Shown here: piece by piece, positions 5,011 through 60,114 of the stretch
Numbering within the stretch: position 1 is the first letter of the stretch
Layout of the letters: each line of letters starts with the position of its first letter
Origin: Desulfonatronovibrio magnus
GTDB lineage: Bacteria > Desulfobacterota > Desulfovibrionia > Desulfovibrionales > Desulfonatronovibrionaceae
NCBI RefSeq assembly: GCF_000934755.1
Contig: NZ_KN882176.1
Coordinates: 81,124-145,123, forward strand
Direction: 5' to 3'
DNA: 64,000 nt
Program-made: the position numbers and the translations under genes
Notes under the pieces: generated by a model
The model's input: the letters and a program-made list of their open reading frames with translations, nothing else
The model's database searches: none
Told to the model about the DNA's origin: nothing

Positions 5011-5056
5011 GAATCATGAGCGTTCAAAGTTCCTGGTTCTTTGTTCCTAGTTGGAG

Positions 5057-5099
5057 TCTCCTCACTTGGGCGGACTGGGACCGAACCTGTTAGTAACTT
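5057..5099 (+). repeat. Rep-A element (divergent copy 1)
   Basis: ctcctcacttgggcgg followed by actgggaccgaacctg and tagtaactt: a diverged copy of the GC-rich Rep-A palindrome (core CCCGGGCGGCCCGGGACC). It forms the left boundary of the Rep-B copy that follows. Confidence 0.75.
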
Positions 5100-5349
5100 T
5101 AAGACTCTGTCACTTTTCGGGAAATTGGGACAGTCCCCGCGAGGTTCTGTAAAAAAGATTGATGCTGCATTGGTTCCTGGTAGAGATTTGTTTCAATGGA
5201 AAAATTTACACAGCGAGGGACAGTCCCTGTGCCAAGTGCAAAGTTCCCATCTTTGACGAAATTTTTCAGGCAAATGTGCATCAATCATAGGCAAAAATCG
5301 TAAAAATGTGAAAACTGTAACAGTCTGATTTTATTTGTAAAACGATTCC
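5100..5349 (+). repeat. Rep-B element, copy 1
   Basis: A roughly 250-bp repeat recognisable by gggacagtccccgcgagg, cagcgagggacagtccct and tctttgacgaaatttttcag. Other copies are at 28205-28482 (inverted) and 51215-51478. Short ORFs in it are not conserved between copies: a one-base indel shifts the frame in the third copy. I regard it as non-coding. It is flanked on both sides by Rep-A. Confidence 0.85.
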
Positions 5350-5404
5350 AGTTACTTGTAAGCTCCTCACCCGGGCGGCCCGAGACCGAACCTATGAGTA
5401 ACTT
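5350..5404 (+). repeat. Rep-A element, copy 2 (near-consensus)
   Basis: A complete copy: agttacttgtaag, then ctcctcacccgggcggcc, then cgagaccgaacctatg and agtaact. The outer ends (AGTTACTTG and its near complement AGTAACT) form an inverted repeat around the self-complementary GC core. Confidence 0.85.
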
Positions 5405-22764: not shown

Positions 22765-22814
22765 GGACTTCTCATTTTGGTATGGGGTTGGAAGTTACTG
22801 TATTTAAAAAAACA

Positions 22815-23035
22815 GAAAAATTTGAACCGCAAAGGCGCAAAGGACTCAAAGTTAAAGACAATAAAGAAGATATTTTTGAAAATCGGGCATCGGTTTTCAA
22901 AAAGGCTGCCTTATCATTTGCCGCTCCCCGGCAAATGAAAAAATTTCTTTCTTCCTTTGCGCCCTTTGCGTCTTGAGTGAGTCTTCGAACGGGCGGTTAA
23001 AAATATTTTTTTGGGTTGAGGACGAAGCCAGCATT
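22815..23035. repeat. Rep-C element, uninterrupted copy
   Basis: A 220-bp block whose reverse complement lines up with 30010-30370, starting aatgctggcttcg, through aaccgcccgttcg and aagactcactcaagacg, to tcttctttattgtc. Compared with that copy it lacks three short insertions, so it shows the empty sites. It contains a hairpin catttgccg.../...cggcaaatg. Confidence 0.85.
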
Positions 23036-23041
23036 AAATAA

Positions 23042-24205
23042 CTATTTCTTACCGTAATCAACATCAAGTTCCAACCCTTCAATATCCGTAACTTTTTCAC
23101 CCCTCAGCGATTTGACCCGGTCAATCATCTGCTTGAGCCTGGACCGATCCGAAGCATTGAGCATGGCCACGTCTTCAGCAATTATTTCATTTTCATACAG
23201 ATTCATGAGGTACTGGTCAAATGTGGTCATGCCATAAGCATCACCTTCAGCTATAACATTGTAGAATGTTTTTTCATCATCCTCACCGTTAAGGATCAAA
23301 TCTTTAACTCTAAGGTTGTTGCGCATGATTTCAAAGGCAGCAACTCTTCCGCCGCTCTGTCTTAGCATAAGTCGTTGCGAAACAACGTATTTAAGACTTT
23401 CAGCAAGCCTGGATCTTATGAGACGCTCTTCGTTTAGCTCAAACATGCCGATGATGCGGTTGACTGTTTGTCCGGCATCGCTGGTGTGCAGAGTGCCCAG
23501 AACAAGATGTCCTGTTTCCGCAGCCTCTAAGGCGATGGAAATGGTTTCTCTATCTCTGATTTCACCCACAAGTATTACTTTAGGCGCCTGCCGCAGAGCC
23601 GCTCTCAGTCCTGAAGCAAAAGTATTAAAGTCAATGCCCATTTCCCGCTGATTGATAACCGCTCGTTTGTGCTGATGCTGAAACTCCACAGGATCTTCAA
23701 GAGTAACAATGTGTTTATACTCCTGATTGTTAATTTCATCAATCAAAGCGGCCAGAGAAGTAGACTTACCTGTTCCTGTGCCTCCGGTGACCAGAATCAT
23801 GCCGTACTTTTCAGAGGCCATTTCATTGAAGATGGGCGGCAGTTTGAGCTGCTCCATTGAGGGCACTGTCATGGAAAGTTTGCGCATTACTATGGCCAGT
23901 GATCCTTTCTGACCAAATACATTAACCCTGAATCTGGCTTGTCCTGGAAGTTCATAGGACAGATCGCATGATCCGGTATTAAGCTGGTCCTGGTAAAGAC
24001 GCATGTTGCGCCCCATCATGGCCATGGCAACAGCCTCGGTTTGAAAAGGCACAAGAGGCCCAAGTCCGGGCCTGGTTGCAACAGTGATCAGTTTACCATG
24101 AACTTCGGCCTGAATTTTTTTACCCACAGTGAGTATGATATCAGACAGGTCAGGGTAGGCCTGCAAGGTTTGGCTGATGAGGTCGTCCAACTGGGATCTG
24201 AGCAT
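23042..24205 (-). CDS. PilT/PilU-family type IV pilus retraction ATPase
   Basis: 387-residue hexameric secretion ATPase. Walker A GGTGTGKST near 140, Asp box, Walker B VILVGEIRDRET near 208 and the His box TGHLVLGTLHT near 233 are intact; the N-terminal PAS-like domain spans about 1-100. It follows a second paralogue after ten bases. The C-terminus is longer than in PilT (LRGEKVTDIEGLELDVDYGK), like PilU, which assists retraction. Pilus assembly genes are not nearby apart from prepilin peptidase at 28765. Confidence 0.88.
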   Translation of the reverse strand: MLRSQLDDLISQTLQAYPDLSDIILTVGKKIQAEVHGKLITVATRPGLGPLVPFQTEAVAMAMMGRNMRLYQDQLNTGSCDLSYELPGQARFRVNVFGQKGSLAIVMRKLSMTVPSMEQLKLPPIFNEMASEKYGMILVTGGTGTGKSTSLAALIDEINNQEYKHIVTLEDPVEFQHQHKRAVINQREMGIDFNTFASGLRAALRQAPKVILVGEIRDRETISIALEAAETGHLVLGTLHTSDAGQTVNRIIGMFELNEERLIRSRLAESLKYVVSQRLMLRQSGGRVAAFEIMRNNLRVKDLILNGEDDEKTFYNVIAEGDAYGMTTFDQYLMNLYENEIIAEDVAMLNASDRSRLKQMIDRVKSLRGEKVTDIEGLELDVDYGKK

Positions 24206-28204: not shown

Positions 28205-28482
28205 ATCAGTATCTTTTTCTTCTAAGTAACTATAATCGTTTTGATAATAAAATCAGACGGTTACAATTTTCATATTTTTACGATTTTTGTTTATGATTGA
28301 TGCACATTTGCCTGAAAAATTCCGTCAAAGGTGGCAGCTTTGCGCCTGGCACAGGGACTGTCCCTCGCTGTGTAAATTTTTCCATTGAAGCAAATTTCTA
28401 CCAGGAACCAATGCAGCATCAATCTGTTTTATAGTACCTCGCGGGGACTGTCCCAATTTCCAGAAAAGTGACAGACTCTTAA
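28205..28482 (-). repeat. Rep-B element, copy 2 (inverted)
   Basis: Reverse complement of the 5100-5349 block: tttgcgcctggcacagggac, ctgtccctcgctgtgtaaat, cctcgcggggactgtccc in that order on the plus strand. It abuts Rep-A at 28483. Confidence 0.85.
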
Positions 28483-28537
28483 AGTTACTCGCAGGTTCGG
28501 TCCCGGGCCGCCCGGGTGGGGAGATTACAAGTAACTT
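28483..28537 (-). repeat. Rep-A element, copy 4
   Basis: aagttactcgcaggttcgg, cccgggccgcccggg, tggggagattacaagtaact: full-length copy in the minus orientation, with both AGTTACT/AGTAACT ends and a perfect core. Confidence 0.9.
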
Positions 28538-28640
28538 CAAAAAAACTGGACCCCGGATCAAGTCCGGGGTGACGGTTAAAGCAAAGTGTAGCTCATTATC
28601 GTCATTCCGGCGAAAGCCGGAATCCAGGTTTTGATATTAA
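28538..28640 (-). repeat. Rep-F element, copy 2 (inverted)
   Basis: aaaaaactggaccccggatc, ggggtgacggttaaagc, attccggcgaaagccgga: the blocks of 9011-9125 in reverse complement. As there, it stands directly against a Rep-A copy. Confidence 0.85.
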
Positions 28641-30009: not shown

Positions 30010-30069
30010 TTTTTCTCTAATGCGGGCTGTGCCCACAACCCAAAAAAAGATATTTTAACCGCCCGTTCG

Positions 30070-30125
30070 CCCCTGTTGAATGGCTGCGCCTACACTTCGT
30101 GTATTTAAATGGTTATCAGGGTAAA
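30070..30125 (+). mobile_element. Mini-P element (56 bp) in Rep-C
   Basis: Inserted between cgttcg and aagactc. It begins CCCCTGTTGAAT; inner hairpins are GGC-TGC-GCC and ACAC-TTC-GTGT; the outer stem is TTGAAT/ATTTAA with one G-T pair. A closely similar element at 52264-52310 occupies the same target motif. Confidence 0.75.
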
Positions 30126-30142
30126 AAGACTCACTCAAGACG

Positions 30143-30196
30143 CCCAGTTAAACCCTGCTGCGCAGGAACGCTTTCAGCGTTGTTAAACCGGGCAGG
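30143..30196 (+). mobile_element. Mini-P element (54 bp) in Rep-C
   Basis: Inserted between gacg and caaaggg. Ends CCCAG and GGGCAGG; outer arms GTTAAAC and GTTAAAC pair with one mismatch; inner hairpins CCTGC-TGC-GCAGG and AACGCT-TTC-AGCGTT. Confidence 0.8.
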
Positions 30197-30240: not shown

Positions 30241-30290
30241 ACCCAGTTAAACCCGTCTGCGACGGAGACTACTCCTGTTTAACAAGGCAG
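30241..30290 (+). mobile_element. Mini-P element (50 bp) in Rep-C
   Basis: Inserted between gggga and gcggcaaatg, splitting the loop of the parent hairpin. CCCAG start; outer stem GTTAAAC/GTTTAAC perfect; inner hairpins CCGTC-TGC-GACGG and GGAG-ACTA-CTCC; AAGGCAGG end. Confidence 0.8.
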
Positions 30291-30439
30291 GCGGCAAATG
30301 AAAAGGCAGCCTTTTTGAAAACCGATGCCCGATTTTCAAAAAAATATCTTCTTTATTGTCTTTAACTTTATTTGTTATCTGTTATTTGTTAATTGTTATC
30401 AGGGTAAGGTATTGAATTCAGGCTTTTATTCTTTAACAA

Positions 30440-30584
30440 TTAACTGATAACTAATAACTGATAACTAATAACTAATAACTAATAACTAATAACTAATAAC
30501 TAATAACTGATAACTAATAACTGATAACTAATAACTGATAACTAATAACTGATAACTAATAACTGATAACTAATAACTGATAAC
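30440..30584. repeat. ATAACTR 7-bp tandem array (about 20 units)
   Basis: Runs of ataacta and ataactg, first irregular, then strictly alternating in the right half, which gives a 14-bp higher-order period. Short stretches of the same unit occur at 15501, 25330, 35106, 54201 and 54372. It lies about 100 bases before the PaaK-like gene; no promoter stands out in between. Confidence 0.92.
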
Positions 30585-30683
30585 AATTTATTGTTTTTTA
30601 TGACAGGGTTCCAAGAGTAAGTTACCAATCAGCAGATACGTCACACTGTATTTTTCGCAATCCTGATAAGGAGGACCAGCATA

Positions 30684-37729: not shown

Positions 37730-37876
37730 GATGATTTAAAATAGCTTATCCTTGTATTTCAAATGGTTGGTGTCACACAATTCTATCATAACTGGCGCAC
37801 AGCAAGGTGTACACCCCTCCTTAGTTAAGGAGGGGTTGGGGGTTATTCGATCTAATTGATCTCTTCCTTATTATCC

Positions 37877-37930
37877 AGTTACTCGCAGGTTCGGACCCGG
37901 GCCGCCAGGGTGAGGATCTTACAAGTAACT
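37877..37930 (-). repeat. Rep-A element, copy 6
   Basis: agttactcgcaggttcgg, acccgggccgccaggg, tgaggatcttacaagtaact: full-length copy with both ends. Confidence 0.85.
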
Positions 37931-37974
37931 GGAAGCGTTTTATTAATAAATTCAGATTATTACGATTTTGCCAT

Positions 37975-38106
37975 ACAGATTGCTTCGGTCGCTTAGGCTC
38001 CTTCGTGTGTGACAGGTTTTCAGCAACTACATTCCTGACACCTCAGGTGTCATTGCGAGCGAGTCTTCGAGCGCGGCAATCTCTAACGTGTTAAGGCTGA
38101 TTTTTT
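37975..38106 (-). repeat. Rep-G element, empty-site copy
   Basis: In reverse complement it reads gattgccgcgctcg, aagactcgctcgcaatgac, acctgaggtgtcagg, then aacctgtcacacacg and gcctaagcgaccgaagcaat. The 52206-52455 copy has a 47-bp insertion between ctcg and aagactc that is absent here. Flanked on both sides by Rep-A. Confidence 0.85.
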
Positions 38107-38140
38107 AGTTACTCGCAAGCTCGGTCCCGGGCCGCCCTGT
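38107..38140 (-). repeat. Rep-A element, copy 7 (one end lost)
   Basis: agttactcgcaagctcgg followed by tcccgggccgccctg; the far AGTAACT end is missing and unique sequence begins. Confidence 0.8.
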
Positions 38141-38178
38141 TATGACGCTTTCCGTTTAAAAAAATGTTCAAATCATTT

Positions 38179-52205: not shown

Positions 52206-52455
52206 GAAATAGCCTTAGCGCGCGATTGCTTCGCTTTGCACGCAACAAGGATTGCCGAGCTCGCCCCAGTTGAATGGCTGCGTCTGCACTGCGTGTATTC
52301 AACGTGGTAAAAGACTCCCTCGCAATGACACCTGAGCTGCCAGGGATGTAGTTGCGCAAAACCTGTCACCCACGAGGCAGCCTAAGCGACAGAAGCAATC
52401 TTTAAGGTAAAGCCATAATGTCTTGATTTTATTGTTAATACAATTCCAGCTGCAT
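52206..52455 (+). repeat. Rep-G element, filled copy
   Basis: gattgcttcgctttgcacgc, attgccgagctcg, [insert 52264-52310], aagactccctcgcaatgac, acctgtcacccacg, gcctaagcgacagaagcaat. Aligns with the reverse complement of 37975-38106 once the insert is removed. Confidence 0.85.
52264..52310 (+). mobile_element. Mini-P element (47 bp) in Rep-G
   Basis: Starts CCCCAGTTGAAT; perfect outer stem GTTGAAT/ATTCAAC; inner hairpins GGC-TGC-GTC and CAC-TGC-GTG. It interrupts ctcg^aagactc, the same motif as at 30069/30126. Confidence 0.8.
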
Positions 52456-57009: not shown

Positions 57010-57462
57010 AATTTTGCCAGAGCGAGGGGGCGGGCCACAGCAAGTGCCTGGTATCAAATACTTAATTGTCAATTTTGCCCTTTGAAAGAGTCCTGTATCG
57101 CTTTTTTTGGAGCCAAAAAGAGTTTTTTTTCAGCCCCAGTGTACTGAAAGAAGGTACTCGGGGCAGGTGCGAAATAACACCCCAGTGAACCCCCCTGCGG
57201 GTGCTAATGGCTGAGCAATTTCACACGGCAGGGAAACTGGCAGATAAGGCTTCCGCCGCAGGGCGGGGCTGGATTAGTGGGGATTGGCGGACAGAGAAGA
57301 AGAGTTAGGTCCGCTAATTTGCGCTAATCTGCGCGAATAAGAATGAAGAGGGATTAAATATCTGCTTTGCTGATCGCAAAGACAGATAACTTCACCGCAA
57401 GGCGGGGTTGAATTTACATTGTGCTGTGTCGTTGGCGGACCTCTTATAATGGGATCTTGATT
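57010..57462. other. Repeat-rich non-coding region before rloA
   Basis: Contains a short Mini-P-like hairpin (57135-57167), a full Mini-P element (57181-57232), the downstream block aaactggcagataaggctt shared with 59911-59930, and small palindromes such as gcgctaatctgcgc (57330). No gene seen. Confidence 0.6.
57181..57232 (+). mobile_element. Mini-P element (52 bp)
   Basis: CCCAG start; outer stem GTGAA/TTCAC; hairpin CCC-TGC-GGG; second hairpin TGCT ... AGCA; end CGGCAGG. Its flank on the 3' side (gaaactggcagataaggctt) is the same as that of the element at 59860-59910, so the pair may have been duplicated together. Confidence 0.75.
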
Positions 57463-59521: not shown

Positions 59522-59659
59522 ACCGGATGGTCGATCATCACACAAATGAACCGCAAACCCCTTCACCTACTTTTTTAAAGGACGTGCTGCGCTGCCCACC
59601 TGAGCAAAGCACGAGAAAGAAAGAAAAGAATATTGCCCACGAAACACTCAAAAAAACAC

Positions 59660-59751
59660 CCCAGTGAAACCCAGTGAAATTCGCTACGCTGAGACTTCGT
59701 CTATTTCACAAGGCGGGCACCCCACAGGGGACCCCGGTTTCACGGGGCAGG
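59660..59751 (+). mobile_element. Nested Mini-P elements (one inside another)
   Basis: Outer element: CCCAGTGAAA at 59660-59669, resuming at 59718 with CACCCCACAGGGG and ending GGTTTCACGGGGCAGG at 59751; outer stem GTGAAAC/GTTTCAC. Inner element 59670-59717: CCCAGTGAAAT start, stem GTGAAAT/ATTTCAC, hairpin AGAC-TTC-GTCT, end AAGGCGGG. Removing the inner one restores a complete outer element. Confidence 0.75.
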
Positions 59752-59859
59752 CGAAAGAAGAAATAAGAAAGAAAAAGAAGAAGAGATTTGTCCACGAAAC
59801 ACTCGAAATATCACGAAAAGAAGAAAGAAGAAAAGGATACATTATCTGCCATGTAAAAC

Positions 59860-59910
59860 CCCAGTGAAATCCCTGCGGGTGCTCATGGCTGAGCAATTTC
59901 ACAGGGCAGG
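59860..59910 (+). mobile_element. Mini-P element (51 bp, most regular copy)
   Basis: CCCAG; perfect outer stem GTGAAAT/ATTTCAC; hairpins CCC-TGC-GGG and TGCTCA-TGGC-TGAGCA; end AGGGCAGG. It lies in the non-coding stretch 59522-60114, which otherwise holds AG-rich low-complexity DNA (59755-59835) and no gene. Confidence 0.8.
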
Positions 59911-60114
59911 GAAACTGGCAGATAAGGCTTCGCCGCAAAGCGGGGGAAGAATTTATTTTGCATGTTCAGCGTGTTTAGTGTTCAGAGTTCTCGTACCAGC
60001 AGGGTGGCCCCCACAATATCCGTATCAACTATGCCGCTTTTCCTGAAGGCATAGAGCTTTGAAGTGGTCCTCTGGGGCAGGCACTTTTTCCACATCTAAG
60101 CCTGTAGCGAATGA

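Follow-up and report, generated by a model that had tools for sequence, protein, structure and literature searches.

The locus at 52264-52310 of the window (the whole 64,000-nucleotide stretch of DNA analysed here) raises the question of whether a very small, geneless palindromic insert, termed P1, has selected its target. The first-pass annotation had described one insert that splits the repeat Rep-G at CTCG^AAGACTC, another that splits the repeat Rep-C at TTCG^AAGACTC, and a Rep-G copy within 37975-38106 that is continuous at the site. Both splits were reproduced to the base. The continuous Rep-G copy lies on the minus strand at 38049-38080, unbroken as GCTCGAAGACTCGCTCGCAATGAC, and the window also holds an unsplit Rep-C. 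The features at these sites are as follows.

52251..52263, plus strand: left half of the Rep-G core, ATTGCCGAGCTCG, ending in the target half CTCG (52260-52263)
52264..52310, plus strand: P1 mini-element in Rep-G, 47 bp (covariance model R1, 67.9 bits, match 52264-52312)
52311..52330, plus strand: right half of the Rep-G core, the target half AAGACTC (52311-52317) followed by CCTCGCAATGACA
38049..38080, minus strand: empty Rep-G core, ATTGCCGCGCTCGAAGACTCGCTCGCAATGAC, with the motif at 38061-38070 (this exact core recurs in 122 of 138 empty copies genome-wide)
30066..30069, plus strand: target half TTCG in Rep-C
30070..30125, plus strand: P1 mini-element in Rep-C, 56 bp (covariance model R1)
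30126..30132, plus strand: target half AAGACTC in Rep-C
22979..22988, minus strand: empty Rep-C target motif TCGAAGACTC within CCGTTCGAAGACTCACTCAAGACGC

The two inserts had also been taken for each other's closest relatives, which holds inside the window only; across the genome, the 52264 insert falls among those of Rep-G and the 30070 insert among those of Rep-C. The 30070 insert exceeds its sisters in length because 30104-30125 (TTTAAATGGTTATCAGGGTAAA) stands in place of the usual ...CAACTGGGTAAA. The end of the IS110 elements of this genome (L224-L226) matches these 22 bases, which accounts for the extra length as an IS110-like remnant. Next to the same Rep-C copy, 30406-30612 consists of tandem copies of a 14-base unit resembling AACTAATAACTGAT. 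Another large repeat forms a 332-base inverted pair, 87% alike, at 5031-5362 and 28219-28550 of the window.

The genome holding the window is that of a soda-lake sulfate reducer and comprises 4.81 Mb in 134 contigs. Across it the motif TCGAAGACTC occurs 161 times, compared with 16 occurrences of the reversed control, and the full-length P1 pattern found 58 copies, compared with none for its reversed control. A genome-wide search with the left-half pattern brought the P1-like total to 63, the copies beyond the 58 being P1 variants, a single nested one and a decayed one in Rep-C (L212). P1 measures about 49 bp, and its more than 60 genomic copies lie nearly always in one direction at the 10-base motif. 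Every full copy sits, in constant orientation, at TCG^AAGACTC of Rep-G or Rep-C or at a remnant of that site (truncated or rearranged in L026, L052 and L064, a Rep-C/Rep-G chimera in L065); the genome-wide search found no full-length P1 elsewhere. Empty counterparts amount to 138 Rep-G cores and 27 exact Rep-C sites genome-wide. Intact motifs outside Rep-G and Rep-C numbered 1 of 90 in the fetched sequence, and the occupancy figures cover these two repeats. Junctions are precise, orientation is fixed and site use within this genome is near-exclusive. Two checks had been proposed along with the original observation. The census of TCG-AAGACTC sites gave about a quarter filled. The comparison of insert variants with site gave a divided answer: variants track their host in this genome, but between genomes tail variants cross hosts, a weak piece of evidence.

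A flank shared by all filled copies might be the element's own sequence, the core and P1 having moved whole as a longer unit. The 31-base Rep-G core flanking P1 fits such a history in being almost invariant while the outer flanks diverge. Yet no empty copy of either host lacks AAGACTC or its neighbours, and a search of 150 genomes of the order for empty sites and for TCG^CTC found no TCG^CTC state without AAGACTC. Because all P1-free copies of both hosts keep the complete motif, TCGAAGACTC is host sequence; P1 relatives elsewhere do without it. Rep-C and Rep-G also diverge directly beyond the shared stretch, and the outer Rep-G flanks align between copies, so the core does not turn up at fresh locations. 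The shared flank was rejected as part of P1, and we consider movement as a longer unit extremely improbable.

P1 is present outside the window's genome. Among 61 genomes searched it was found in G002, G004, G005, G006, G009 and G014, all from the window's own family; the named ones are Desulfonatronovibrio and Desulfonatronospira MAGs. P1 lies in Rep-G in G004 and G005 and in Rep-C in G006, G009 and G014, at a bond identical to the window's. Relatives of P1 were found in other surroundings as well: at GGCG^CAAAGG of a third repeat in G006 (L200-L205) and, as two copies with the stem altered on both sides, in a further context in G002 (L103/L104; the L103 stem is GTGAAAT/ATTTCAC). Since relatives occupy these further sites, the P1 lineage moves apart from Rep-G and Rep-C. 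The viral contigs searched held no P1. In two genomes another mini-element is nested in the second hairpin of P1, at approximately the same point (L208 and L213).

The distribution of P1 over Rep-G was followed in 48 filled and 77 empty copies with flanks; retrieval of the empty copies by exact motif leads to an underestimate of diversity near the site. On a tree of the right flanks the filled or empty state changed 37 times, versus 38.3 +/- 2.6 when shuffled, and the nearest neighbour of a filled copy was also filled in 16 of 48 cases. Filled copies are thus scattered at random over diverged hosts, and a pair made up of a filled and an empty copy shares 95.8% identity across 313 bp. Polymorphisms in the right flanks are almost unlinked (r2 below 0.08). 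With hardly any linkage the right-flank tree carries little signal; either recombination among the repeats is free or their history is star-like and signal-poor. A left-flank variant 14 bases away divides the copies unevenly (29 filled and 23 empty for type A, 17 and 54 for type B; p=6e-4), and the enrichment of type A among filled copies is a partial subfamily signal. The idea that filled Rep-G copies form a single subfamily was dropped, the filled state being unassociated with the right-flank tree and only partly associated with left type A. Between copies P1 differs by 4.4%, versus 14-28% for the Rep-G flanks. Together with the scattered filled state, this difference suggests a recent spread of P1, possibly with the adjoining core, into repeats that had already diverged; given how nearly invariant the Rep-G cores are (122 of 138 exact), core plus P1 may be the copied unit.

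The events could also have run from filled to empty, with the filled state ancestral in both repeats and P1 precisely lost many times, for example through excision or slippage at the base of the hairpin. Filled cores are slightly more decayed than empty ones (38 of 53 exact versus 122 of 138, p=0.008), as expected were filled copies older, and the decayed filled Rep-C copy L212 exists. However, the direct repeats around P1 are at most 1-2 bp, too little to guide slippage, and that P1 is so much more uniform than its flanks suggests that it spread recently and is no ancient relic. Repeated loss is very unlikely in our estimate.

Whether Rep-G and Rep-C were hit separately depends on how far sequence could have passed between them. 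The original claim that two different repeats had been hit at one motif stands as to the bond, which is identical, and is weakened by the likeness of the hosts around it, 15 of 17 bases being common to Rep-G and Rep-C (CGYTCGAAGACTCRCTC; manual alignment). This shared stretch exceeds what a 4-5-base target needs. One locus is itself recombinant: L065 (G000:C19:37300-39300) runs from Rep-C on its left through a P1 variant at the joint to Rep-G on its right. P1 might have entered one family once and reached the other through recombination over the shared 17-base segment or over P1, short-tract gene conversion then shuffling the alleles; the identical site would reflect descent and not target choice. 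The near-zero linkage in the right flanks, the hyper-homogeneous Rep-G core and the partial association of the filled state with left type A would all suit this history. Against it, filled Rep-C copies retain T at -4 and A at +8, where filled Rep-G copies mostly have C and G. Any tract taken over from Rep-G would therefore have had to stop at most 3 bp to the left and 7 bp to the right of the junction. Empty Rep-C/Rep-G chimeras were absent from the fetched sequence, and P1 relatives stand in two other contexts. Later homogenisation could restore the host bases, so a single entry followed by recombination, though weakened, keeps some probability; we judge it rather improbable. Separate precise insertions are favoured because a transferred tract would need to stop within 3 and 7 bases, and independent hits on Rep-G and Rep-C are likely as judged from these alignments. 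The earlier proposal of site-specific insertion draws support from the identical bond and orientation in both hosts, here and in relatives, and is tempered by the possibility of transfer through recombination.

P1 is predicted to fold as a Y, or three-way junction, with an outer stem CCC.GTTGAAT/ATTCAAC.GGG and two small triloop hairpins. Compared with shuffled sequences the Rep-C form folds well (z -3.45), while the Rep-G form alone does no better than shuffles (z -1.34). In an alignment of 25 forms the covariation score was 0.080 versus 0.054 for shuffled alignments, none of 500 shuffles scoring as high, and 90% of cells were paired versus at most 44% in slid versions; the Y structure covaries. 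Of 20 triloops, 17 read TNC and hence GNA on the other strand; the exemplars may share descent, so the nominal probability makes the case look stronger than it is. GNA loops form extraordinarily stable DNA minihairpins (Yoshizawa 1997, as cited in PMC6479982), and the triloop pattern points to recognition of a DNA rather than an RNA structure. The known RNA families found in the window consist of tRNA alone. An integron attC site was considered, the outer stem GTTRAAY...RTTYAAC resembling core sites, and was dropped because the core sites run in the opposite order.

The covariance model built from P1 also matched other mini-elements, including two in the window, and a sequence-free search for junctions returned mostly members of the same class plus a few chance structures. 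The further mini-elements of the window are listed here.

30143..30196, plus strand: P2 mini-element at GACG^CAAAGG, in the same Rep-C copy as the 30070 insert
30241..30290, plus strand: P3 mini-element at GGGGA^GCGGC, in the same Rep-C copy as the 30070 insert
59669..59714, plus strand: P6, a distant class member (model R1, 29.6 bits, E 5e-6)
59859..59911, plus strand: P7, a distant class member (model R1, 25.7 bits, E 9e-5)

Both P2 and P3 are missing from the empty Rep-C copy near 22800-23060. P6 and P7 lie close together within 59658-59931, one of them with a duplicated left arm, and the interior of P7 has a second copy at 57193-57253. Precise pairs of filled and empty sites were obtained for P2 at GACG^CAAAGG (4 filled, 11 empty), for P4 at GGCG^CAAAGG (8 filled, 9 empty) and for P3 at GGGGA^GCGGC (8 filled and 2 nested, 8 empty). 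The P2 site is occupied by a P3-like element in L096, and mini-elements nest in one another. Overlap at the junctions is 0-2 bp for P1, P2, P3, P4 and P5. The sequence CG^(C)AA marks 5 of 9 lineage/site pairs versus 1.3% of host positions, in a comparison that was framed after the junctions had been seen and whose lineages are not fully independent.

A mobiliser was sought in this genome and in relatives, where statements of absence are limited by the incompleteness of the MAGs. Y1 transposase gave ten matches in the genome, none of which has a mini-element or a P1 end beside it. It was undetected in the P1-bearing G004, G005 and G014 within the limits of those MAGs, and P1-free relatives possess it; with neither proximity to P1 nor co-occurrence, Y1 was rejected as partner. 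IS110 is represented by fragments at contig ends, the single readable end of which is unlike the ends of P1, and its C-terminal half is absent from the assembly; IS110 too was undetected in G004, G005 and G014, as far as these MAGs extend. It stays a lead because insertion into REPs is established for members of the IS110 family, among them ISPpu9, ISPpu10, ISPa11 and IS621 (PMC1525189). A longer autonomous element with P1 ends was rejected, since the left-half search yielded P1 variants and relatives only.

P1 resembles several known systems in part. Like REP/REPIN elements moved by RAYT/TnpA-REP (Y1 HUH), it is short, mostly intergenic, palindromic, many-copied and non-coding, is free of target duplication and has a hairpin that likely matters in single-stranded DNA. 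It differs in that neither a GTAG nor a CGTC tag stands at the foot of its hairpin: among the copies listed, its feet read YTCGCCCC and, on the other strand, CTTGCCC or TTTTACC. Instead of a single stem-loop of 20-40 bp it has a covarying three-way junction of about 45 bp, and whereas a RAYT (Y1) gene is flanked by its repeats, Y1 here lies beside no mini-element copy. The CGTC REP superfamily (Di Nocera 2013, PMC3733652) is described by a CGTC or TGTC tag, an 8-9 bp stem starting with AT and a short loop. By that description the Rep-G target, and neither P1 nor Rep-C, is a candidate member: the Rep-G core (TGTCATTGCGAG...GGCAATC) has a TGTC tag, ATTGC/GCAAT and a stem starting with AT. At 37860-38160 of the window, Rep-G has two REP-like hairpins that face each other and bear TGTC tags; the P1 target is one of them.

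IS110 elements in REPs (PMC1525189) are, like P1, site-specific at one point inside a palindromic repeat; they are autonomous and of ordinary IS length, however, whereas P1 spans about 49 bp, has no gene and has ends unlike the IS110 end found here. An IS200/IS605-derived mini-element would share ends with a resident Y1 element, and no mini-element or P1 end was seen around the ten Y1 matches; the fixed orientation and absent duplication of P1 are compatible with strand-specific excision of a single strand and its insertion 3' of a short target. Cyanobacterial small dispersed repeats (Elhai et al. 2008, as cited in PMC2884548 and PMC3116915) are likewise very small and apparently mobile. They measure about 20 bp, compared with about 50 bp for P1, and belong to an unrelated phylum. 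DDE MITEs are likewise non-autonomous with inverted-repeat ends, but P1 has no target-site duplication beyond the 0-2 bp overlap and keeps a fixed orientation at a specific site.

Taking these results together, we hold it reasonably probable that P1 is an orientation-fixed, site-preferring, non-autonomous mini-element of about 49 bp that was then reassorted among repeats. It would be one lineage of a diverse Y-shaped class in the Desulfonatronovibrio/Desulfonatronospira group, inserting precisely, in one orientation and without appreciable target duplication, at YTCG^AAGACTC inside Rep-G and Rep-C, the class target often being a putative CG^(C)AA. From there, copies would spread through the dispersed repeats or be reassorted among them, leaving filled and empty ones intermingled. 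We infer a transposase-like reaction behind the movement of P1, most likely with single-stranded DNA as its substrate and an enzyme acting in trans. More tentatively, and with considerable doubt, these may be a new class of Y-shaped single-stranded-DNA mini-elements of about 50 nt held together by GNA triloops, whose insertion into other repeats, one another included, would keep a fixed orientation, use CG^(C)AA-type sites and depend on machinery other than a resident Y1 or a DDE transposase. How tiny palindromic repeats spread without a transposase of their own is an old open question. Here a single genome offers filled and empty versions by the dozen, and relatives show the same junctions in the two host families; with these sites, the relatives' junctions and the further sites of P1's kin, target choice, orientation and the order of events become directly testable.
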